NCBI RefSeq assembly: GCF_003932495.1 | Contig: NZ_QZMT01000006.1 | Span: 1 to 64,000 of the forward strand | Direction of reading: 5' to 3' | Source: Guyparkeria sp. SCN-R1 | GTDB taxonomy: Bacteria; Pseudomonadota; Gammaproteobacteria; Halothiobacillales; Halothiobacillaceae | Length of the DNA: 64,000 nt | Shown: positions 41,142-52,775 of the stretch, piece by piece | Layout: every line of letters begins with the position of its first letter | How positions within the stretch are numbered: position 1 is the stretch's first letter | Position numbers and translations under genes: made by a program | Notes under the pieces: generated by a model | Told to the model about the DNA's origin: nothing | The model's input: only the letters and a program-made list of their open reading frames with translations | Database searches by the model: none

Positions 41142-42017
41142 TCAGGCGTTCACTACCCGTCGGGGCCCACTGCGCGGCGCCTCCTCCATCGCCGGCGGCG
41201 TGCCGTCGGATGCCTTGTCCGCGTAGGGCGTGCTCGGCCCGTTGACCAGGAAGTCCATCAGGTGGTTGCGGAACGGGTAGTAGTGCTCGTCGTGGTGCAT
41301 TTCCTGGCGTGAGCGCGGCTTTTTCAGCGGGTTGTAGGCGCATTCGGCCACCTCGGCGAACGGCCCGTTGGTCATCAGCAGGATCTTGTCGGCCAGCAGG
41401 ATCGCCTCGTCGACGTCGTGGGTGATCATGAAGACGGTCTGGTTGGTGGCCTGGCAGATCGCCAGCAGCTCGTCCTGGATCACGCCGCGGGTCAGCGCAT
41501 CCAGTGCACCGAAGGGCTCGTCCATCAGGAGCATCTTCGGTTCGATGGCGAACGCCCGGGCGATGCCGACGCGCTGGCGCATCCCGCCGGAGAGCTGGTG
41601 CGGCTTCTTGTCGATCGCCGGGGTCAGGCCGACCATGTCGACGTACTTTTCCACCTGCGCGTTCACTTCATCCTTGGAGTGGCGCTTGAAGCGGGATTTC
41701 ACCGCGAAGGCGACGTTCTCGCGCACCGTCAGCCAGGGCATCAGGGCGTGGCCCTGGAATACCACGCCGCGGTCGAGACCCGGTCCGGTGACTTCCTTGT
41801 TCTCCATGAAGACGTAGCCGTCGGTCGCGGCATCCAGCCCGGCGAGGATGTTGAGGATGGTCGACTTGCCGCAGCCCGAGTGGCCGATCAGGCAGACGAA
41901 CTCGCCCTTTTCGATCTCGAAGTCGAGGTTCTGGAACACGGTGACCGGTTCCTGGCCCATCGGCGCGGGGAAGGTCTTCTCCAGGCCGTCGACCTGGATG
42001 AATGCGGGGGTAGTCAT
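41142..42017 (-). CDS. nrtD: Nitrate/cyanate-type ABC transporter ATPase
   Basis: Cytoplasmic ATPase of 291 residues. Walker A LIGHSGCGKSTIL, Q-loop FQGHALMPW, signature QLSGGMRQRVGIARA, Walker B MLLMDEPFGALDALT and His-loop ITHDVDEA are present. The C-terminal extension (about 215-291, containing NPLKKPRSRQEMHHDEHYYPFRN region) is typical of NrtD/CynD rather than TauB or SsuB. There is no NrtC-type fused regulatory ATPase. It follows the permease by 2 nt. Substrate could be nitrate, nitrite or cyanate. Confidence 0.9.
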   Translation of the reverse strand: MTTPAFIQVDGLEKTFPAPMGQEPVTVFQNLDFEIEKGEFVCLIGHSGCGKSTILNILAGLDAATDGYVFMENKEVTGPGLDRGVVFQGHALMPWLTVRENVAFAVKSRFKRHSKDEVNAQVEKYVDMVGLTPAIDKKPHQLSGGMRQRVGIARAFAIEPKMLLMDEPFGALDALTRGVIQDELLAICQATNQTVFMITHDVDEAILLADKILLMTNGPFAEVAECAYNPLKKPRSRQEMHHDEHYYPFRNHLMDFLVNGPSTPYADKASDGTPPAMEEAPRSGPRRVVNA

Positions 42018-42019
42018 GT

Positions 42020-42862
42020 TCAGACCTCCTTATAGCTGACGGCCTTGCCAAGCAGGCCGAAGATCATGTCGAGGATCATGCCGACCACGCCGATCAGGAG
42101 GATGGCGAAGATCACGTTGGCGAGATCGAGGTTGTTCCACTCGTTCCAGATGAAGTAGCCGATGCCGGTACCGCCGACGAGCATTTCCGCGGCGACGATG
42201 ACCAGCCAGGCGATGCCCATCGAGATGCGCATGCCGGTGAGAATCGTCGGGGCCGCCGCCGGCAGGATCACCTTGAACGCCTTCTTGATCGGGCTGACCT
42301 CGAGGGTCTTGGCCACGGCGAGCCAGTCGTCGCGGACCGAGGCGACCCCGTAGGCGGTGTTCACCATCATTGGCCAGATCGAGCAGATGAAGATCACGAA
42401 GATCGAGGAGATCGAGGCGTCCTGGATGATGTAGAGGGCCAGCGGCATCCAGGCGAGCGGCGATATGGGCTTGAGGATCTGGATGTACGGGTCGAGTGCC
42501 TTGTGCATCAACGGCGACATGCCGATCAGAAAGCCCAGCGGCACGGCGACCAGCGCGGCGAGCGCGAAGCCGGCGAGCACCCGCCAGAGCGAATGGGCCA
42601 GCTGGATGCCGATGCCCATGTCGTTGGAGCCCGAGACGTAGAACGGGTCGGACAGGTGCGTCCAGATCGCCGAGCCGATGTCCCCCGGGGTGGGGATGTC
42701 GGATTCCTGGACGGTATCCAGCCCCATCATCGCGGCGTAATCGGGATCCATGTCGCCGAGGTCGACCTGGGTGGGCAGGGTCGCCCCCCACCACGCGCCG
42801 ATGAAGGCGAGCAGCAGGAGAATCGAGACGATGCCACCCCGTAAGCGCAGTGACTGACTCAT
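42020..42862 (-). CDS. nrtB: Nitrate/cyanate-type ABC transporter permease
   Basis: Inner-membrane permease of 280 residues, about six TM helices. The EAA loop reads SPIKKAFKVILPAAAPTILTGMRISMGIAWLVIVAAEML, identified by LPAAAPTILTG and GIAW. An insertion of about 60 residues after TM1 (acidic, GDMDPDYAAMMGLDTVQES) is usual for proteobacterial NrtB. It lies between the binding-protein gene (3 nt) and the ATPase gene (2 nt). Confidence 0.9.
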   Translation of the reverse strand: MSQSLRLRGGIVSILLLLAFIGAWWGATLPTQVDLGDMDPDYAAMMGLDTVQESDIPTPGDIGSAIWTHLSDPFYVSGSNDMGIGIQLAHSLWRVLAGFALAALVAVPLGFLIGMSPLMHKALDPYIQILKPISPLAWMPLALYIIQDASISSIFVIFICSIWPMMVNTAYGVASVRDDWLAVAKTLEVSPIKKAFKVILPAAAPTILTGMRISMGIAWLVIVAAEMLVGGTGIGYFIWNEWNNLDLANVIFAILLIGVVGMILDMIFGLLGKAVSYKEV

Positions 42863-42865
42863 GAC

Positions 42866-44242
42866 TTAGGCCCTCCCGATCTCGAACGATTCGAGGTATT
42901 CCTGCGGGCGCGCCGGGTCGAATTCCTTGCCCATGATCATGTGCGTCCGACTGTTGATCTCGGGTGCCGGCAGGCCCATCTCGGCCAGACGCTGGCGCGC
43001 GTCGGTCGCGCGGAAGATCTCCTCGGCGATGTCGGCGTAGTCGATTTCCTCTTCGATGTAGCCCCAGCGCTTCATCTGCGTGAGGATCCACACGCCCATC
43101 GATTCCCACGGGAACGGGTCGAAGTCGGCACGCTCCGGCTCCTCGATGATGTTGCCCAGGCCATCTGCATAGCGGCCGGTCATCACCTGGTCGAGCACGA
43201 TCTTCGGCTGGTTGAGGTAGTTGGCCGGGGCGATCGCCTCGATGATCTCCGGGCGGTTCTCCTTCTTGTGCGCGTAGACCGTGGCGCTGGCGATGGCGCG
43301 GAACAGCGCGGAGAAGGTGTTGGGGTTCTCCTCGACGAAGCTCTTGGTCGCACCGAAGGCACAGCAGGGGTGGCCGTCCCAGAGGTCTTTCGACAGCACG
43401 TGGATGAAGCCGGCGCCCTCGTAGACCGCGCGCTGATTGAACGGCTCGGGGCCGAGGAAACCGTCGATATTGCCGGCCTTGAGGTTGGCGACCATCTCCG
43501 GCGGGGCGATGACCTTGAGCTGGACGTCCTTGTCCGGGTCGACGCCGTGCTCGGCGAGGTAATAGCGCAGCAGCAGGTTGTGCATCGAGTGGTCGTAGGG
43601 GATGCCGAAGGTCATGCCCTTCCAGTTGCTCGGATCACGATTCTCCTTGTGCTTGTTGTGCATCGTGATCGCCTGACCATTGATGTTCTGGATGGTGGCG
43701 ACGTAGGTGTCCTGCTGGCGCGCACCGACCCCGAGCGAGGCGGAGATCGGCATGGGCGAGAGCATGTGCGAGGCGTCGAGCTGGCCATTGGCAACGTTGT
43801 CTCGGATCAGTGCCCAGCCGGCGGTCTTGACCACCTCGACGTCGAGGCCCTCGCGCTCGTAGAAGCCCATCGGGTGGGCCATGATGATCGGCGTGGCGCA
43901 GGTGATCGGGATAAAGCCGACCTTGAGCTTCTTCTTCTCCAGCGGTCCGACCGGGTCGGCGGCGACGGCCTTGGCGGCGGCCATCGGGAAGAAGGTGGAA
44001 ACCGCGGCCATCGCCGTGCTCACGCCGACGGCCTTGAGGAAGTTGCGACGGGTGCGGTCTTCCGGGAACAGCGAGCGCATCACGGACGATTCGACGGCGC
44101 GATTGAGGGCCGCCTCTTCATCCGTCGGGTTGGGGCTGGCGGCGATGGCGGCATTGTGGTCCGCCTGGCTGGCGTGCTTGCCGCAGGTGCAGCCGCGGTG
44201 CAGTGACTTGTCGGGATCGAACGGGTTATCGAATGTGGACAT
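42866..44242 (-). CDS. nrtA: NrtA-like substrate-binding protein
   Basis: Binding protein of 458 residues from ATG 44242. An N-terminal cytoplasm-facing tail of about 60 residues contains H15, C18, C20, H23 and H29 (HRGCTCGKHASQADH), then a Tat signal RRNFLK at 65-70 and hydrophobic helix. The NMT1/NrtA fold follows (LKVGFIPITCATPIIMAHPMGFYEREGLDVEVVKTAGWALIRDNV, recognised by its first strand and FYEREGL). NrtA, CynA and CmpA (nitrate, cyanate, bicarbonate) are too similar to separate by eye. The operon has a sigma-54 promoter 28 nt upstream of this gene. Confidence 0.9.
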   Translation of the reverse strand: MSTFDNPFDPDKSLHRGCTCGKHASQADHNAAIAASPNPTDEEAALNRAVESSVMRSLFPEDRTRRNFLKAVGVSTAMAAVSTFFPMAAAKAVAADPVGPLEKKKLKVGFIPITCATPIIMAHPMGFYEREGLDVEVVKTAGWALIRDNVANGQLDASHMLSPMPISASLGVGARQQDTYVATIQNINGQAITMHNKHKENRDPSNWKGMTFGIPYDHSMHNLLLRYYLAEHGVDPDKDVQLKVIAPPEMVANLKAGNIDGFLGPEPFNQRAVYEGAGFIHVLSKDLWDGHPCCAFGATKSFVEENPNTFSALFRAIASATVYAHKKENRPEIIEAIAPANYLNQPKIVLDQVMTGRYADGLGNIIEEPERADFDPFPWESMGVWILTQMKRWGYIEEEIDYADIAEEIFRATDARQRLAEMGLPAPEINSRTHMIMGKEFDPARPQEYLESFEIGRA

Positions 44243-44280: not shown

Positions 44281-44296
44281 TGCAGATGCCGTGCCA
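44281..44296 (-). promoter_or_regulatory. Sigma-54 promoter of nrtABD
   Basis: Reading leftward: TGGCAC, five bases, CTGCA. The -24 GG and -12 GC are exactly 11 bases apart as required. Predicted start of transcription is near 44270, 28 nt before the nrtA ATG. Confidence 0.78.
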
Positions 44297-44350: not shown

Positions 44351-44501
44351 CACTACGAAAGAGCGGTGGCGCGCGAGCAATCCCGTTCTTGGTGCGTCCG
44401 CGAGGGCCGTATCGGCGCGCAATGCCCGCCAATGGCGGACAAAGTCATGGGCCTGCTTCTTGCAGCTCCGGGAATGTCACCTATTCGTCCGGAGTTGCCC
44501 C

Positions 44502-46160
44502 ATGACCCACGCGCAAGTCATTCAATCGTCGGCCCGTGCCGACAGTGCCGATGCTGAACTGCTGGTCGTGCACGAGGCCACGCAATGGCTTTCGCACTTG
44601 AACGACCCCGACACCGTGATCGGCCGGATGCTGCGGTTGCTCTCGCAGATCACCGGCCTTAATCGCGGCCGCGTGGTGCTGCCCGATGCCAGCGGCGAGT
44701 TCATGGAGATCCGCTACGCCTACGGGCTCTCATCCGACGAGCGCGACCGCGGCCGCTACCGGGTGGGCGAGGGCGTGACCGGGCGGGTGATGCGCACCGG
44801 GCAGGTCGCGGTGGTCCAGGACATCGACGAGGAGCCGGTCTACCTGACCCGCGCGGTCGAGCGCGACACCCTGCCGCACGAGACGGTGGCCTTTTTGGCC
44901 GTGCCGATACTCAACGAGGACCAGCCGATGGGCGTACTCGGCGCGCACCGCATCCGCGAGCGCCACCGGCCGTTGCACCGGGACATCACGCTGCTGCGCA
45001 TCATGGCCGCGCTGATCGCCCGGGTGCTCAAGGTCGACGACCTGATTCGCGAGCAGACCGCCGCGCTGGCCGAGGAGAACGAATCCCTGCGCGAGGCGCT
45101 GTCGAGCAACCAGGAGGCGCGTCACGGCATTCTCGGCGAGAGCCCGGCGTTGCGTCAGGCCTTTCGCCAGACCCTGCACGTCTCGCCGACGCAGGCCACC
45201 GTGTTGCTCAACGGCGAGTCCGGCACCGGCAAGGAGCGATTTGCGCGCATGGTGCACTTGACCAGCCCGCGTTGCGACGGGCCGTTCATCGCCATCAACT
45301 GTGCGGCCATTCCCGATGCGTTGCTGGAGTCCGAGTTGTTCGGTCACGAGAAGGGGGCGTTCACGGGCGCGGTCTCGGCGAAGAAGGGCAGCGTCGAACT
45401 CGCCTCCGGCGGCACGCTGTTCCTCGATGAAATCGGAGACTTGGCCTTCGATTTGCAGTCCAAGTTGTTGCACGTGCTGGAAAAACAGACCATCCACCGC
45501 GTGGGTGGCACCAGGGACGTGCCGGTCGACGTGCGCATCATTGCCGCCACGCACAAGAACCTGCAGGAGGCGGTCAACCAGGGGCGCTTTCGCATCGACC
45601 TGTTCTACCGGCTGAACGTCTTTCCCATCCACCTGCCGGCCCTGCGCGAGCGCGACGGCGACGTGAAACTGCTCGCGCGGCACTTCCTGCAGGTCGCCAG
45701 TCAGGAGTTCGACCGCAACGCCACGTTCGAGGTGGGCGTGCTCGACCGGTTGGCGGCCTACAACTGGCCGGGCAACATTCGCCAATTGGAGAACGTGATC
45801 AAGCGGGCGGTGCTGGTGGCGCAGAACGGCTGGATCACCGTGGCCGATATCGAACTGATCCTGACCCACGAATCGCACGTCACCGACCACCTCGAGGCGG
45901 GTGGCACCCCAAACACACCCGAACCGCCCTCTGACTGGGGCGCGGCTGAAAGCGGCCGCCCGCGACAGGGTGGTCATGCATTCCCCCAACCCGCGGCGGT
46001 AACCGAGCGCAGTTATCGGTGGGTGCGCGAGGACGAAGCCGAGTCGCTGCTCCAGGCATTGCAGGAAACGGGCGGGAACAAGACGCAGGCCGCCAGGCGA
46101 TTGGGCATGACGACCCGGCAGTTCCGCTATCGTCTCGATAAACTGCACTTGAGCGGGTAA
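44502..46160 (+). CDS. NifA-like sigma-54 enhancer-binding activator (GAF-AAA-Fis)
   Basis: Transcription activator of 552 residues from ATG 44502 (GGAG 8 nt before). N-terminal GAF sensor about 15-185; AAA+ domain about 205-435 with Walker A NGESGTGKE, the sigma-54 contacting GAFTGA loop, Walker B LFLDEIGD and the arginine finger region; Fis-type helix-turn-helix at the C-terminus (GGNKTQAARRLGMTTRQFRYRL). This is NifA domain order, but no nif genes are present. It is divergent from nrtABD, whose promoter is sigma-54 type, so it is the likely activator. The GAF ligand is unknown. Confidence 0.92.
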   Translation: MTHAQVIQSSARADSADAELLVVHEATQWLSHLNDPDTVIGRMLRLLSQITGLNRGRVVLPDASGEFMEIRYAYGLSSDERDRGRYRVGEGVTGRVMRTGQVAVVQDIDEEPVYLTRAVERDTLPHETVAFLAVPILNEDQPMGVLGAHRIRERHRPLHRDITLLRIMAALIARVLKVDDLIREQTAALAEENESLREALSSNQEARHGILGESPALRQAFRQTLHVSPTQATVLLNGESGTGKERFARMVHLTSPRCDGPFIAINCAAIPDALLESELFGHEKGAFTGAVSAKKGSVELASGGTLFLDEIGDLAFDLQSKLLHVLEKQTIHRVGGTRDVPVDVRIIAATHKNLQEAVNQGRFRIDLFYRLNVFPIHLPALRERDGDVKLLARHFLQVASQEFDRNATFEVGVLDRLAAYNWPGNIRQLENVIKRAVLVAQNGWITVADIELILTHESHVTDHLEAGGTPNTPEPPSDWGAAESGRPRQGGHAFPQPAAVTERSYRWVREDEAESLLQALQETGGNKTQAARRLGMTTRQFRYRLDKLHLSG

Positions 46161-46273
46161 GGACGCCCGGTTGGCCAGGTCGTGGTCGCGAGTGGAACTT
46201 CACGAAAGCGGTCTAGACTAAGTGGCACGTCGTGGTTGCGGCGTTAAGTCGATTTCAACCAGAGGGAAATGTG

Positions 46274-46672
46274 ATGAAACGAGTCGCCCGAATCGTCAGC
46301 CCATTCGTGATCGCCTCATTCACCGTCGGCAGCATGCCGGCGATGGCTACCCCGTCGGCCGTGGCCGATGGGCTGGTCACGACCCAGGAAGCGGTGAGCG
46401 CCGATCAGGCCAGCGCCGATCGTGAGCGGATTGTCGAGCTGCTGTCCCGCGATGAGGTGCGTGACCAGCTGATTGCCCAAGGTGCCGATCCGGCACAGGT
46501 CGAGGAGCGTGTCGCCGCCTTGTCCGATCAAGAGGTGCGCGAGATGAATGAACGTCTTGATCAGATGCCTGCCGGCGCCAGTAGCGTCGTTGGTGTGCTG
46601 TTTGCGGTGTTCGTGATCTTGCTGGTCACCGATTTGCTGGGCTTGACCAACGTGTTCCCGTTCACCCGCTGA
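46274..46672 (+). CDS. PA2779-type small secreted protein
   Basis: Protein of 132 residues: signal peptide 1-28 (cut after AMA), an amphipathic helical region (about 40-100: RERIVELLSRDEVRDQLIAQGADPAQVEERVAALSDQEV, seen by its heptads) and a C-terminal membrane helix (about 105-126, VVGVLFAVFVILLVTDLL). It matches the PA2779 family, which is nearly always followed by a PA2778-type peptidase gene as here. Start 46274 is preceded by GAGGG. Function unknown. Confidence 0.85.
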   Translation: MKRVARIVSPFVIASFTVGSMPAMATPSAVADGLVTTQEAVSADQASADRERIVELLSRDEVRDQLIAQGADPAQVEERVAALSDQEVREMNERLDQMPAGASSVVGVLFAVFVILLVTDLLGLTNVFPFTR

Positions 46673-46690
46673 TAGCGAGTCGTCGCGAGC

Positions 46691-47626
46691 ATGCGATATC
46701 GATCGATGAAAAGCGCCCGCTGGTCGGGCGCTTTGTTGTTTTTGGCGGCCGCCTTGTTGAGTGGCTGCGCCACGACGCCGCCGTTGTCCGAGGACACGCA
46801 TTCTGCCGTACCGGAGCGACATCTGATCGAGGAGGTGCCGTTTCACGGGCAGCGTGATTACCAGTGTGGTCCCGCGACATTGGCCATGGTGCTCGACCAG
46901 GGTGGCCGGACGGCCAGCGTCGACGAGCTGATCCCGCAGGTGTTCCTGCCCGGCCGCGAGGGCAGCGTCCAGCCGGAAATGCTGGCCACCGTTCGTCGTC
47001 ACGGGCTGATTCCGTTCGTCATTCCGGGGCGGCTGGATGCCGTCTTGCAGGAGGTGGCGGCGGATCGGCCGGTGGCCGTGCTGCAGAACCTGTCCCTGCC
47101 GTGGTGGCCGATGTGGCACTACGCGGTGGTGATTGGTTACGACCTCGACGACGAACGCCTGGTGCTTCACAGCGGCGAGACACCACGCATGGACGTTTCC
47201 ATGGGGCGCTTTGATGCCACTTGGGCGCGTTCGGATCGCTGGGCCTTCGTCGCCTTACCGCCGGGCGAATTGCCGGCCTCGGGCGTGGATCGCGAGTCCG
47301 CCAAGGCCATCTCGGCATTCGAGTCGGTGCAGGGGGCCGATACCGCGCTGCCAGCCTGGCAGGCGCTGGCCGACCGTGAACCCTCGTTGGCCCTGGCGCA
47401 GTTCGGACTGGGGAATGCCCTGGCCGCCACCCGTGACCTACGCGAGGCGGCCCGAGCCTTCGGCCGCGCGGTAGACGTGGACCCGGAGTTCGCGGCCGCC
47501 TGGCTGAACCTGGGGCTGGTGCTGCGCTCGCTCGACCGGACCGAGGAGGCCGAGGATGCGCTGCGTCGAGCCGCCGAAATCCCCGGCCCGTTGCAGGAAC
47601 GGGCACGAGAGCAGCGGGCCCGGTAA
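46691..47626 (+). CDS. PA2778-type C39-like cysteine peptidase lipoprotein with TPR
   Basis: Lipoprotein of 306-311 residues; the start is either ATG 46691 or ATG 46706 (MKSARWSGALLFL), both giving the lipobox LLSGC. The peptidase_C39-like domain (about 45-190) has the catalytic Cys in DYQCGPATLAMVL, the His in PMWHYAVVIGYD and an Asp-containing strand after it. A TPR segment follows (about 205-300). The first codons coincide with an intrinsic-terminator-like hairpin (46710-46744). It lies 18 nt after the PA2779-type gene. Confidence 0.87.
   Translation: MRYRSMKSARWSGALLFLAAALLSGCATTPPLSEDTHSAVPERHLIEEVPFHGQRDYQCGPATLAMVLDQGGRTASVDELIPQVFLPGREGSVQPEMLATVRRHGLIPFVIPGRLDAVLQEVAADRPVAVLQNLSLPWWPMWHYAVVIGYDLDDERLVLHSGETPRMDVSMGRFDATWARSDRWAFVALPPGELPASGVDRESAKAISAFESVQGADTALPAWQALADREPSLALAQFGLGNALAATRDLREAARAFGRAVDVDPEFAAAWLNLGLVLRSLDRTEEAEDALRRAAEIPGPLQERAREQRAR
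46710..46745 (+). terminator. Terminator-like hairpin inside the start of the PA2778-type gene
   Basis: Perfect 10-bp stem AAAGCGCCCG (46710-46719) / CGGGCGCTTT (46725-46734), five-base loop, then GTTGTTTTT. It has the form of a Rho-independent terminator for the upstream gene, yet it encodes the signal peptide of the next gene. Possible attenuator. Confidence 0.65.
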
Positions 47627-47732
47627 CTGGCACAGTAAACAGACGTCACAGACCGTTTTCGACGGGCAAGCCGTGGCGATTCGGATCAATCCGGGGCCGG
47701 TCCTCAGGCATGGCTTTTTGCCGGCGCGCGGG

Positions 47733-49136
47733 TCAGTTCGTGGGTTGACCGAGCTGCCGGTAAAGGGCTTCGTGTTCACTGACCGCCTTGCCGGCCAGGG
47801 CGTAGCCGGCGAGTTGGCCGCGGCTCACGAAGTCGTTGCGTTGGCCCTCGGGCACGGTGTGCGGGGTCCAGCGGCCCAGGTCGGCAAGCCGACGGTCGGG
47901 CGGGCAGAGCATGATCGGCAGGCTGGGGGTCTTGACGCGAATCGCGGCCGGGCGGTGCTCGAACGGCACGCAGTCACCGCTCAGGGCCGCGGCGGCGGTC
48001 GTGGCCATGCGGCGGATCGGCTCGATGAAGAAGTAGCTGCGCCCCTTGATCTCGGCGCAGTCGCCGATGGCGTAGACGTGCGGGTCGCTGGTCTGCATGG
48101 TCTGCGCCGAGGCGAGAATGCCGCGGTTGATGACCAGCCCGGCGCGCTGGGCGAAATCGGTGTTGGGCACCAGGCCCATCGCGGAAATCACCTCGTCGGT
48201 ATGGATCTCCCCGCCGTTAGTCAGCGTCACCTTCAGGCGCCCGCCGCTTTGATCGACGCGGGCGAGGCTGGTGCCGGGGCGAAAATCCACGCCCTTGGCC
48301 GAGAGATGCCGGCCCAACTCGTTGCCCAGCGGGGCGGGGGCGAGCCGGTCGAGCATGCGTTCGCCGAGATCGAGCACGGTGACGCGATGGCCGCCGGCGG
48401 TCAGATCCTCGGCCAGTTCCACGCCGATCAGGCCGGCGCCGATGATGGTGACGTGGCGCGGTTCGCCGTCGAGACGGGCGCGCAGGCGCTGGTAGGCGGC
48501 GAGATGATTGAGCCGCGTGATGCGAGGGGCGGCATCGCCGTCGAAGGCGCGAAAGCGCTGGCGGGCACCGAGGGCGAGCACCAGCTCCCCGTAGTGGACC
48601 GGGCCGCGGGTGGTCAGCAGGCGCTTGCCGTCGGTGTTCAGCGCCAGCACCGAGGTGTTCGGTTGCAGGGTGATGCCCAGTTCGGCGGCCTTGGCCGGCC
48701 CGCTCTGCTCGACGAGATCCTCGGGGGCGCGGCCCTGGCTGATCGCCATCGACAGGCCCGGCTTGGTGTAGGCGGCCGCCTCGTCGTTGCTGATCAGGGT
48801 GATGGGGCGATCGGGGTCGCGGGCCCGAAGCTCTTCGGCGACCGTCCAGCCGGCGATGCCGGCGCCGACGATGACCACCGAATCCGGACCGCCCACGCCG
48901 CCCTGTGCCGCGCGGGGCCGCGGGGCATCGTTCTGCGCGGCGCGCTGGGCGGCGTACTCGTGCAGCGGCATGAAGTCGGCCTTGGTCACCCCGCACAGCG
49001 GGCAGTACCAGTCGTCGGGGATGTCCTCGAAGCGGGTCCCTGGCGCGATGCCGCTGTCCGGGTCGCCCTCGTCCTCGTCGTAGATCCAGCCGCAGACGGT
49101 GCAGATCCAGCGGATGTCTTCTTCAGGCGTGTTCAT
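47733..49136 (-). CDS. Rubredoxin-fused FAD-dependent NAD(P)H:rubredoxin reductase
   Basis: Fusion of 467 residues. The N-terminal rubredoxin (about 5-60) has iron ligands Cys12, Cys15, Cys45 and Cys48 ([10 protein letters not shown] and [12 protein letters not shown]). After a linker the reductase part (about 90-460) has an FAD site ([17 protein letters not shown]) and a NAD(P)H site ([15 protein letters not shown]), plus the YAIGDCAEI block. It would deliver electrons from NAD(P)H to rubredoxin and on to an acceptor such as an oxygenase or an oxidative-stress reductase. Last gene of the osmC operon, overlapped by a small ORF. Confidence 0.92.
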
Positions 49137-49332: not shown

Positions 49333-50484
49333 TTAATCGATCAGTGCCTCGATTTCCTTGCGCAGATGCTTGATCGCCGGGGTGACGATCGCGACGAAGT
49401 AGGCCTCGCGCAGCTTGCGTTGGGCCGGGGCGTCGACGAGGTAGCCGTTCGCGCCGATGTGCAGCATGGCGCTGTTGGCCGCGCGCAGGGCGAGCTCGGA
49501 GCCGGCCAGTCGCAATTCCAGTACCTGGCGGAAATAGGCCGGGTCGGGGTTGTGCACGTCGGTGGCCAGTTCGCGGACCAGGGCGCGCGTATCTTCCAGG
49601 GCCTCGCGCAGCTCGTCGGGGCGATCGTCGAGGTAGCAGTTGACGTGGCCGAGGCGCGGTTCGACGTCCTCGCACAGGCGGATACAACCCTCGATCACGC
49701 CCGTGGCCATGCCCGCCTGCAAGAGGACGAAGCCGGCCTTGATGCGGTTGAGGAACGGGCCGACCGGATCGGCGATGATCTGGTTGTGCGGGATGAAGAC
49801 ATCCTTGAAGAACAGGGCGTAGGTGCCGGTGCCTTCCATGCCGCAGAACTCGACCAGTTGGCGAAACTCGAAGCCCGGGGTGTCGGTGTGGACCAGGGCC
49901 ATCACGTCGCGCGGGTTGTCGCCCTCGACGCGGAAGATCGAGCCGAACACGTGCGATTCGCCCAGGTTCGAGATCCACGGCAGCTGGCCATTGACGATGA
50001 AGCCGTCGGCGGTCTCCTCGGCGTGCAGCAGGATGTCCTCGATGCCGGCGAAGTACTTCATCGGGTTGGACAGGGCAGTGCCACCGAGCAGTTCGCCGCT
50101 GGAGAGCTTCGGCAGGACGGTGTCCTTGAGGTGCTGGTTGTCGGAATTCTCGACGTACCAGGCCACGGCGTCCTGGCACCAGGTCATGAAGCCGGTGGAC
50201 ATGCATTCGGCCGAGATGCGGTCCATGTCGTCGATGGCCGCGGCGATGTCCATGCCGGCCGGATTCTGTGAGGCGAGGTGGTGGCGATAGGCGCCGGCCG
50301 CACCGATTTCGTGCAACACGTCGGCGGGGTATTCGCCGTGGTCGATCGCGATCACCTTGGGCTTCAAGGCGCGGCGAATCACCGTGTCGAGGTCGGGCGT
50401 CGCGTCGGTTTTCAGGAACGCCGGTACGTCGGGCGGGGCCGCGGTGGGCCGGGCCGCCACGGGGTCGTGGGTGGCAAGATTCAT
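49333..50484 (-). CDS. Acyl-CoA dehydrogenase family flavoprotein
   Basis: Protein of 383 residues with the three-domain acyl-CoA dehydrogenase layout: helical N-domain, beta-domain (GGTALSNPMKYFAGIEDI, the VNGQLPWISNLGESHVFGSIF strands, FCGMEGTGTYALFF) and C-terminal four-helix domain. It is shorter in the N-terminal part than fatty-acid enzymes and has no obvious CoA-processing neighbours. Family members of this size include flavin-dependent monooxygenases and sulfur-acquisition proteins (SfnB, DszC-like), so a CoA substrate should not be assumed. Start 50484 has a perfect GGAGGTGAT site. Second gene in the operon after osmC. Confidence 0.8.
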   Translation of the reverse strand: MNLATHDPVAARPTAAPPDVPAFLKTDATPDLDTVIRRALKPKVIAIDHGEYPADVLHEIGAAGAYRHHLASQNPAGMDIAAAIDDMDRISAECMSTGFMTWCQDAVAWYVENSDNQHLKDTVLPKLSSGELLGGTALSNPMKYFAGIEDILLHAEETADGFIVNGQLPWISNLGESHVFGSIFRVEGDNPRDVMALVHTDTPGFEFRQLVEFCGMEGTGTYALFFKDVFIPHNQIIADPVGPFLNRIKAGFVLLQAGMATGVIEGCIRLCEDVEPRLGHVNCYLDDRPDELREALEDTRALVRELATDVHNPDPAYFRQVLELRLAGSELALRAANSAMLHIGANGYLVDAPAQRKLREAYFVAIVTPAIKHLRKEIEALID

Positions 50485-50542: not shown

Positions 50543-51106
50543 TCAGGCGAGATGGCAGGAGAGGTCGACCGGACGGGTCATGGTGTTGGCCACCGGTGAC
50601 CACTTCTCGGCGGTGTCCAGCAGGTCCTGCAGATCTTCCTGGCTGATCGGGTCGACCGTCTCGACGTCGAAGTAGACGCGGATGGCGGTGAAGCCCAGCG
50701 GCTTGGATTCGTCGAGGTCACCCGTGCCCCAGACGGCGGTGACGTTGATGTCCGCTTCCATGTTCAGCTCGAGCTTGCTGATCTTGATCTGGCGCGCGGT
50801 GGCGTTGGCGTGGACGCCCACGGCCAGGCAGGCACCCAGCGCGGCCAGGGTGGCCTCGGACGGATTCGGGGCGGTGTCGTCGCCCAGCAGGTGCGGCGGC
50901 TCGTCGACCACCACCGGATCGAGGTCGCGGATGTAGGTCAGGTTGCGAAACCGGCCTTCGCAGACGGTCTTCGCCTTGAGCGTGACCACCGCATCCGGGT
51001 TGGCCTTGCCCTTTTCACTCAGTGCCTTGAGGCCGTCGGCATCGATTTCCTTGATCGCCTGGCGGATGCAGGACGGGGCGACGGGTTGGGCGGTTGCTGT
51101 GCTCAT
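50543..51106 (-). CDS. OsmC family protein, single-Cys variant
   Basis: OsmC/Ohr-fold protein of 187 residues. The first peroxidatic Cys is kept (Cys93 in LAALGACLAVGVHANA), but where the second active-site Cys is expected the sequence reads EKWSPVANT, with Ser170. A peroxidase cycle through the usual disulfide is therefore unlikely unless another Cys (C184 near the end) substitutes. First gene of the leftward operon with the ACAD-like protein and rubredoxin reductase, under a sigma-54-type promoter. Confidence 0.88.
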   Translation of the reverse strand: MSTATAQPVAPSCIRQAIKEIDADGLKALSEKGKANPDAVVTLKAKTVCEGRFRNLTYIRDLDPVVVDEPPHLLGDDTAPNPSEATLAALGACLAVGVHANATARQIKISKLELNMEADINVTAVWGTGDLDESKPLGFTAIRVYFDVETVDPISQEDLQDLLDTAEKWSPVANTMTRPVDLSCHLA

Positions 51107-51185
51107 GGGTATTCACTCCGGTTCTGGATTGGCTTGGACGTGGATCGGGATGTCTCTCGACGAATCCCGTCGTCGCCTACTGCAT

Positions 51186-51201
51186 TGCAGAGGCTGTGCC
51201 A
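51186..51201 (-). promoter_or_regulatory. Sigma-54 promoter of the osmC operon
   Basis: Reading leftward: TGGCAC, five bases, CTGCA, the same boxes and spacing as the nrtA promoter. Predicted start near 51175, about 70 nt before the osmC ATG. Confidence 0.72.
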
Positions 51202-51277
51202 AGAACCGTAAATTGCGTTGTGGCGCCGTTTGGAAGGGATTGTGCATGGCGCTGCCCCAGGGTGGGGCGGGCATTGT

Positions 51278-51290
51278 CGGACAATGTCCG
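51278..51290. promoter_or_regulatory. Enhancer-like dyad 1 (osmC-cynS)
   Basis: CGGACA-A-TGTCCG, perfect dyad; it overlaps a second perfect dyad ATTGTC-G-GACAAT at 51273-51285. Centre is about -109 from the predicted osmC start and -130 from the possible cynS start. Confidence 0.65.
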
Positions 51291-51309
51291 GTCTTTCGCC
51301 GGCGTGGGG

Positions 51310-51322
51310 CGGACAATGTCCG
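51310..51322. promoter_or_regulatory. Enhancer-like dyad 2 (osmC-cynS)
   Basis: Second identical copy of CGGACA-A-TGTCCG, 32 bp from the first (three helical turns), each preceded by GTGGGGCGG. Such paired, phased dyads about 100-140 bp upstream are typical of enhancer-binding protein sites. Confidence 0.65.
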
Positions 51323-51387
51323 GTTGGCGGCGTGTTGTTGCGCTGATCGAATGCGTAAGTGTTGGAAAGAAAAGGATAAGTGCTGCT

Positions 51388-51403
51388 TGGCAGGCTTCTT
51401 GTA
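51388..51403 (+). promoter_or_regulatory. Weak sigma-54-like element before cynS
   Basis: TGGCAG, five bases, TTGTA. The -24 box is good but the conserved C of the -12 GC is T, so this is only a possible promoter. Predicted start would be 51414, 57 nt before cynS. Confidence 0.3.
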
Positions 51404-51470
51404 ACGACAGGGGACAGTGGCCTTGACGGTCACGACGACAAACCCGATATCCCTTGACGGAGATGCCCGC

Positions 51471-51914
51471 ATGATGACCAAGCAAGCACTGACCGACCTG
51501 ATCCTGGAAAAGAAGACCGCGCTCGGCCTGTCCTGGGCCGATATCGCCAGTGGCGTAGACCTGTCCCCGACGTTCGTCACCTCGGCCTGTCTGGGCATGA
51601 ACAGCCTCAAGCCCGAGTTCGCCGACAAGCTGATCGCGATCCTCGAACTGCCCGCCGAGGCCAAGGCCGCGATCGAGGCTTGCCCCATGAAGACCTGGGA
51701 ACAGACCGTGCCGACCGACCCGCTCATCTATCGCCTCTACGAGGTCGTGGGCGTCTATGGTTCGACCATGAAGGAGCTGATCCACGAGGAATTCGGCGAC
51801 GGCATCATGAGTGCCATCGACTTCTCGCTCGACGTCGACCGCGAGGTCAACCCCGCCGGCGATCGCGTCGTGATCACCATGAACGGCAAGTTCCTGCCCT
51901 ACAAATCCTGGTAG
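51471..51914 (+). CDS. cynS: Cyanate hydratase (cyanase)
   Basis: Cyanase of 147 residues; decomposes cyanate with bicarbonate to carbamate, giving CO2 and ammonia. Catalytic residues align as Arg88, Glu91 and Ser114 (IYRLYEVVGVYG and GIMSAIDFSLDV), matching Arg96/Glu99/Ser122 of E. coli with a shift of eight. The N-terminal helical domain is the usual POU-like fold. ATG 51471 follows CGGAG by 8 nt; an in-frame extension to 51417 is not needed. Neighbouring carbonic anhydrase and Dab genes would link its CO2 product to carbon fixation. Confidence 0.96.
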   Translation: MMTKQALTDLILEKKTALGLSWADIASGVDLSPTFVTSACLGMNSLKPEFADKLIAILELPAEAKAAIEACPMKTWEQTVPTDPLIYRLYEVVGVYGSTMKELIHEEFGDGIMSAIDFSLDVDREVNPAGDRVVITMNGKFLPYKSW

Positions 51915-52028: not shown

Positions 52029-52775
52029 TCAGTCGATCAGGACCCGGGCGTTGATCGGTTGAACCGGCCGGTTGTTCTCCGTGCCGATCGCTTTCTCGAA
52101 CGACGTGATCTGCTCGGTGGAGAGGGTGGGGTGCTGTTGTATGACCACCCAGCGGACACCCTCGCTGCAGGGCGGCGTGGTCAGCGAACCGTTGTAACGA
52201 TAATGTTCGGTTCCGGCAGGTAGCAGTTCGGCCGCGTTGAACGCGGCATCCAGCTCAACCTCTTCGCCTGCCGAGCCGGGGAGCTTCTTCACGAGCGGCT
52301 CGAGCGCGTCGTTGGCTTCTCCTTCCTCGAACAGCGCGGCCACGACGGCTAGGTTGCCGTCCGGGTCGGCATGGACGAAATGCACTTCCAGCGGGAAATG
52401 TTTCCCATCAATGGTGTGCTCGCTCGGGGCATGGAAATGGAACTGTTTGAGCTGGAAGTCCCGGCCGTCGAGCGTAAGGGTGCTGCCTTTCTGGTAGTCG
52501 ACCTGAATGGCGTGGCCATTATTGACGAGGTGGGTGCCGCCGTCGCTGTAGTCGAATGTCGGGGCTGACTGATCCGCCGACAAGGATGCGGTTACATCGA
52601 TGGGCGACTGGTTCACGCCGTCACCACAGCTCGAGTACGCCGGGTCGAGCGAGGCCCACTGGTCCGGGCCGGCATCGCCCTTGTAGCTCCAGTGAGTGGC
52701 GTCAGCTGCCATGGCGTGATGGGGCAGGCCGAACGTGGCGACCACTACGGCAATGGTTCCGGGAGTAATTCGCAT
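52029..52775 (-). CDS. Periplasmic alpha-carbonic anhydrase
   Basis: Alpha-class enzyme of 248 residues with signal peptide 1-23 (ending HAMA). Zinc ligands are His113, His115 and His132 (QFHFHAPSEH and EVHFVHAD); the SPID, GSLTTPPCSEGV and NNGH blocks are conserved, and Cys50 can pair with the Cys of TPPCSE. It interconverts CO2 and bicarbonate in the periplasm. Placed between cyanase and the dab cluster it may supply CO2 to DabA/DabB, whose substrate is thought to be CO2. Monocistronic, AAGGAG site before the ATG. Confidence 0.95.
   Translation of the reverse strand: MRITPGTIAVVVATFGLPHHAMAADATHWSYKGDAGPDQWASLDPAYSSCGDGVNQSPIDVTASLSADQSAPTFDYSDGGTHLVNNGHAIQVDYQKGSTLTLDGRDFQLKQFHFHAPSEHTIDGKHFPLEVHFVHADPDGNLAVVAALFEEGEANDALEPLVKKLPGSAGEEVELDAAFNAAELLPAGTEHYRYNGSLTTPPCSEGVRWVVIQQHPTLSTEQITSFEKAIGTENNRPVQPINARVLID

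Follow-up and report, generated by a model that had tools for sequence, protein, structure and literature searches.

The window that we analysed, a stretch of 64,000 nucleotides from Guyparkeria sp. SCN-R1, carries osmC on the minus strand and cynS on the plus strand, which flank an intergenic stretch read at positions 51107-51470. On the minus strand, osmC (50543-51106) is the first gene of an operon and encodes an OsmC-like protein (Pfam OsmC); the genes for an ACAD-like flavoprotein (49333-50484) and for a rubredoxin fused to an NADH:rubredoxin-reductase-like protein (47733-49136, by domain and profile matches) complete it. On the plus strand, cynS (51471-51914, its start set at the first ATG of ATGATG) encodes a cyanase that scores above the TIGR00673 cut-off. 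Two further loci concern us here: cynF (44502-46160, plus strand, start set at ATG 44502), which encodes a sigma-54 activator with a GAF-AAA+-Fis HTH layout, and a cynA-cynB-cynD-type ABC transporter of the nitrate/cyanate type (41142-44242, minus strand, by domain and profile matches), which cynF adjoins and from which it diverges. A carbonic anhydrase gene of the eukaryotic-type Pfam family (52029-52775) adjoins cynS, and passages of PMC9032823 place carbonic anhydrase close to cyn in Guyparkeria.

A preliminary description of this DNA had read the osmC/cynS region as a divergent sigma-54 control region, with a near-perfect -24/-12 promoter directed at osmC, a weaker one at cynS and, between them, two identical dyads 32 bp apart. 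Direct reading recovers each of these elements: TTGGCACAGCCTCTGCAA on the minus strand at 51202-51185, TTGGCAGGCTTCTTGTAA on the plus strand at 51387-51404, and exact copies of CGGACAATGTCCG at 51278-51290 and 51310-51322. A partial third dyad, CGGGCATTGTCGG at 51268-51280, stands 10 bp from the first and in register with it. The osmC and cynA promoters both show the GG and GC, ten bases apart, of a -24/-12 promoter in a TGGCAC-N5-TTGCA-like context; in the cynS-side element of the window the -24 part is intact and the -12 part reads TTGTA, without GC. By convention, +1 is taken 12 nt beyond the -12 base. Counted from the predicted starts, the dyad centres then fall at -109 and -141 for osmC and at -98 and -130 for cynS, in agreement with the range first proposed, about -98 to -141 from either start.

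How much of this could be due to chance? Exact matches to CGGACANTGTCCG in the 2.42 Mb genome are these two dyads only, and the genome scan for further copies that the preliminary description had called for thus yielded no exact one. Allowing up to one mismatch gives 13 places, versus 4 for a reversed-pattern control. We inspected 8 of the 11 one-mismatch places (C5:32158, C7:34409 and C9:54804 were left out) and rejected them as further sites, as 7 of the 8 lie inside reading frames of at least 138 aa; the eighth (L182) lies 15 bp past the end of a 425-aa frame. TGGC-N9-TGC occurs within about 250 bp of one of the eight (L178), itself inside a 589-aa frame. The exact osmC-type promoter, TGGCAC-N5-YTGCA, occurs at two places in the window, before osmC and before cynA. 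Relaxed forms show no excess over window shuffles: three promoters with one mismatch were found for 2.7 expected, and four dyads with up to two mismatches for 5.6 expected. The case for function therefore rests on conservation. In a sample of 369 genomes of the class, the exact dyad-pair pattern occurs in two, both Guyparkeria, and since this sample holds three members of the genus and one other of the family, the figure says little on the family.

We therefore compared the region within the genus and family. Ten genus members have cynS; the alignment covers eight of them, the window included (G006 and G010, which have long inserts, were left out), and fixed 415-bp upstream stretches replaced the intergenic regions of G005, G009, G013 and G015 in the motif, alignment and spacing tests. 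Among the eight genus members, the mean fraction of bases identical to the window is 0.95 in both promoters (for osmC over 51184-51201) and 0.97 in both dyads; it is 0.85 in the partial dyad (51268-51277), 0.81 in the osmC leader and 0.60-0.70 in the DNA between promoters and dyads. In the alignment, conservation peaks in islands over the putative promoters and dyads. The 32-bp dyad spacing is kept in 10/10 genus members with cynS, and an exact GACANTGTC core is found in the osmC/cynS region of all 17 family genomes that carry CynF. In the other seven of these genomes, five have cores spaced 9, 19-21 or 44-45 bp apart and two (G011 and G013) have a single core.

The distribution of CynF follows that of the operon. 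cynS is present in 20 of the 57 genomes searched, 18 of these being among the 27 family genomes. A CynF ortholog (at least 68% identity) occurs in 17/27 family genomes, the ACAD-like gene occurs in the same 17, and all but one of the 18 family genomes with cynS also carry CynF; CynF-like matches of 52% and 45% identity in G052 and G048 stand outside the family counts. Presence and absence of CynF are mixed within two family genera, as are those of the ACAD-like gene, which implies several gains or losses, although some of the genomes are incomplete. The one family member with cynS that lacks CynF, G021, also lacks the ACAD-like gene. Upstream of its cynS the exact core was not found, and a one-mismatch core lies about 300 bp up; a sigma-54-like element is retained before cynS although CynF is absent, so another activator could serve cynS in this genome.

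The domain content of CynF suits the proposed role. It matches PF00158 (sigma-54 interaction, 232.7 bits), HTH_8 and GAF, and its best-scoring model is the NifA equivalog TIGR01817, with a score of 465.2 bits, which is below the cut-off of 528.85. The HTH is alike in most CynF homologs compared. The genome holds nine other strong sigma-54 activator-domain genes, one of which (L010) is truncated at the end of its contig; among the 8 others with a visible C-terminus none has the same HTH as CynF, and one (L007) comes near.

Between cynF and cynA we find three weak dyads of the same motif, in 10-bp steps, at 44416-44448 (3-4 mismatches each), a -24/-12 promoter towards cynA on the minus strand (TGGCACGGCATCTGCA, 44281-44296) and a -24/-12-like element towards cynF on the plus strand (TGGGCCTGCTTCTTGCAG, 44448-44465), which points to possible autoregulation. 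The weak dyads stand some 152-172 bp upstream of the cynA start as predicted, and near the element of cynF; from this position we infer that they may let CynF activate cynA and also regulate its own gene. The sigma-54-like element of cynF occurs in relatives too.

To score these sites, a motif matrix was built from 28 sites of 16/17 genomes, using the osmC/cynS regions alone, and then applied to the cynF/cynA regions. Over 8 cynF/cynA representatives, the summed best-site score and the summed tandem score were each equalled by a single one of 5000 symmetric permuted matrices, a set that may contain near-identical column orders. In each of the 8 representatives, the 10-bp tandem score exceeds those of all 248 control stretches, which are mostly coding. 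Single sites are weaker: the single best cynF/cynA site was matched by 24 of the 248 controls for G011, 37 for G017 and 3 for G015, and single-site shuffle p-values range from 0.003 to 0.133, falling below 0.05 in 11/17 genomes. It is the summed and tandem tests that carry the claim. In the cynF/cynA region of G052, no dyad with four or fewer mismatches was found. An NtrC-like pattern (GCACCA...GC, which we take to be the consensus) lies between cynF and cynA in 3/17 regions (G012, G013 and G023; L052, L053 and L056) and would suit nitrogen control there.

Beyond the family, a profile search of genome contigs with the ACAD alignment returned 287 relatives, and we analysed the 80 best loci. Among these 80, which come from proteobacteria and cyanobacteria, osmC stands next to the ACAD gene in 75, and cynS lies within the analysed stretch in 49; where the stretch reaches at least 20 kb, it is present in 37/49, both figures being raw counts. 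Hosts of the 80 loci include Guyparkeria, Halothiobacillus, Thiomicrorhabdus, Hydrogenovibrio, Acidithiobacillus, Halomonas, Rhizobiales, Rhodobacterales and Leptolyngbya-like cyanobacteria. Divergent cynS/osmC pairs less than 800 bp apart number 23 of the 80: 12 from the window's family, 10 from a Thiomicrospira-like group defined from record titles, and L110. Outward sigma-54-like elements occur on both sides in 23/23 pairs, as against 0-5 of 200 shuffles with elements near the genes on both sides. Towards osmC the strict pattern is present in all 23; on the cynS side the relaxed pattern TTG[CTA] was picked after viewing the sequences, so that this half of the 23/23 is not blind. In 21/23 pairs the elements lie no more than 170 bp from either gene, and in the other two (L096 and L099) an insert places the cynS element about 350 bp away. 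This insert, of about 265 bp and between the cynS element and cynS, is MITE-like, with terminal inverted repeats seen by eye. In the 10 Thiomicrospira-like close pairs, the dyad core is exact in one (L120), carries one mismatch in two (L121 and L122) and was not found in seven; most dyads of this group have drifted.

Taken together, these observations lead us to a model in which the 218-bp stretch between osmC and cynS would act as a shared enhancer of two divergent sigma-54 promoters. CynF, a GAF-domain sigma-54 activator, would sense cyanate or a related signal and bind the CGGACAATGTCCG dyads as an oligomer; from there it could contact sigma-54 polymerase at the cynS promoter and, on the opposite side, at the osmC promoter. 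A further place of action would be the control region between cynF and cynA, and one regulon would then take in uptake (CynABD), cyanase and the OsmC/ACAD/rubredoxin-reductase operon. We consider this model probable as a whole, on the basis of the conservation islands, the core in 17/17 genomes, the joint inheritance of CynF with the ACAD-like gene, the motif at cynF/cynA, the 23/23 paired elements and the need of cyanase for CynF in P. pseudoalcaligenes (PMC6627978). One activator for both sides, as originally proposed, is thus the best reading, its support coming from comparative genomics throughout. The NifA-like protein that had been named as a candidate is the likely activator, by its shared distribution with the operon and the motif beside its gene, and by domain layout and neighbourhood it appears to be the counterpart of CynF of Pseudomonas pseudoalcaligenes.

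Could the dyads instead be the target of a distinct regulator, either a repressor or an activator outside the sigma-54 class, with sigma-54 working through some other protein? A perfect 13-bp palindrome between two promoters would fit a repressor too, and co-occurrence was examined for one regulator, CynF, within a single family where co-inheritance is not fully independent. CynF nevertheless shares the distribution of the operon, and the dyad motif recurs beside its gene, which makes this alternative rather unlikely. A second possibility is that sigma-54 dependence is confined to the strong osmC promoter, cynS being transcribed from a different one. In its favour, the -12 of the cynS element lacks its C in all 12 family pairs examined, and since the weakness is common to them it is a lineage trait. 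Against a separate cynS promoter, the element is as conserved as the osmC promoter, its strict -12 GC is present in 9/10 Thiomicrospira-like pairs, and no sigma-70-like promoter was found in 51050-51500, to which we give little weight as shuffles yield 0.1. We judge this alternative unlikely.

Direct action on the region by another sigma-54 activator such as NtrC seems more improbable still. The presumed NtrC-like pattern is found in none of the 17 osmC/cynS regions, its few occurrences being those between cynF and cynA. The nine further activator genes, among them L007 with its similar HTH, do provide candidates, and passages of PMC6627978 report that ammonium represses the cyn genes in P. 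pseudoalcaligenes. Finally, a chance arrangement devoid of function is scarcely credible given the conservation of the elements and their spacing, even though neither motif is, in relaxed form, more frequent than in shuffles of the window.

What, then, would CynF switch on together with cyanase? The OsmC-like protein has Cys93 in 76/76 sequences and Ser170, also in 76/76, at what we take to be the position of the expected second Cys, so that we rejected a 2-Cys OsmC/Ohr peroxidase. The ACAD-like protein has an ACAD fold in its predicted structure (mean pLDDT 90.5; Z 39.7 and rmsd 2.3 over 342 residues to 4kto), a general match that leaves the reaction undefined, and neither nitroalkane oxidase nor DszC-type monooxygenases are among the 50 fold matches listed. 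Thr368, invariant in 28 ACAD-like sequences, occupies the presumed place of the catalytic Glu near the C-terminus, in a register extended gap-free by eye past the end of the alignment. Some ACADs carry this Glu elsewhere. The flavoprotein is apparently one without the usual catalytic Glu.

A sulfur connection comes from the neighbourhood. A rhodanese match occurs in 44 of the best 80 loci, 32 of them also with cynS; 43 of the 44 reach at least 60% identity to a query, the match in L099 being split into pieces, and the remaining one (L165) reaches only 28%. In 11 of the 12 family loci L096-L107 (the exception, where none was found, is L104) the rhodanese gene comes after that of the reductase; in L130, L144 and L149 it stands straight after the ACAD gene. 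In the window genome no rhodanese was found at 46160-47733, and matches elsewhere reach only 24-30% identity. In two Acidithiobacillus loci (L124 and L125), a cluster brings together CynF, OsmC, ACAD, rubredoxin reductase, a formate/nitrite-channel-like protein, a 439-aa protein, cyanase and a sulfurtransferase. The combination of sulfur transfer, a transporter of the linear-anion type and cyanase hints at thiocyanate or a similar cyano-sulfur compound as the substrate, from which the operon could yield cyanate. We tentatively envision a cytoplasmic, as yet undescribed route in which OsmC, ACAD, rubredoxin reductase and rhodanese would convert thiocyanate (or a like cyano-sulfur compound) to cyanate, passing the sulfur to the one-cysteine OsmC and to rhodanese, with CynF co-inducing the route along with cyanase and uptake, and with a spread over alpha- and gammaproteobacteria and cyanobacteria. 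This is a possibility that we hold with low confidence.

The regulon proposed here yields a specific candidate motif for binding by regulators of the CynF type, and a control region with two promoters that a single reporter experiment could address. It also connects cyanate with a widely distributed operon of unknown function, and gives a lead on how nitrogen might be obtained from cyano-sulfur compounds in bacteria without thiocyanate hydrolase or thiocyanate dehydrogenase.

NifA binds upstream activator sequences of the form TGT-N10-ACA. CynF resembles NifA in its GAF-AAA+-Fis HTH layout, in having TIGR01817 as top model and in dyads about 100-140 bp upstream; it differs in its score (465 versus 529 bits) and in its site, ACA-N-TGT within CGGACANTGTCCG instead of the NifA sequence. 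Thiocyanate dehydrogenase (TcDH) loci, as presented in passages of PMC5744179 and PMC6504805, share with the present one a sigma-54 activator, cyano-sulfur chemistry, sulfur-oxidising hosts and cyanate as product. TcDH is periplasmic, however, with copper-transport neighbours, whereas the three-gene operon described here is without such genes and would be cytoplasmic.

In the literature, Guyparkeria cyanase is noted in passages of PMC6504805 and PMC9032823. The former name neither OsmC nor acyl-CoA, their sigma-54 passage being about the TcDH locus; the latter name neither OsmC, rubredoxin nor sigma. Passages of PMC5596200 and PMC9062700 mention both cyanase and OsmC, without a link between them. 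Among the matches listed, in a search that covers few subscription journals, none connects OsmC or ACAD with cyanase or gives a CynF binding motif. The closest known system is cynFABDS of P. pseudoalcaligenes CECT5344, where, in passages of PMC6627978, CynF is essential for cyanase, and, as here, a CynF-type activator diverges from cynA and a putative sigma-54 promoter precedes cynA. In the same passages, cynS is the last gene of a cynABDS transcript, whereas here a divergent promoter region of its own precedes it, which the OsmC/ACAD/reductase operon shares; before cynF stands a putative sigma-70 promoter there and a sigma-54-like element here; and a binding motif is proposed here. The preliminary description knew of no described regulon that joins these genes. 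For OsmC and ACAD, we likewise did not find a joining to cyanase in the literature searched; for cyanase itself, control by sigma-54 and CynF is described in Pseudomonas (passages of PMC6627978). Half of the regulon thus has a precedent. As far as our searches reach, cyanase control by sigma-54 and CynF is known in kind, while the dyad motif and the second operon are new, the partner operon being the more surprising part.
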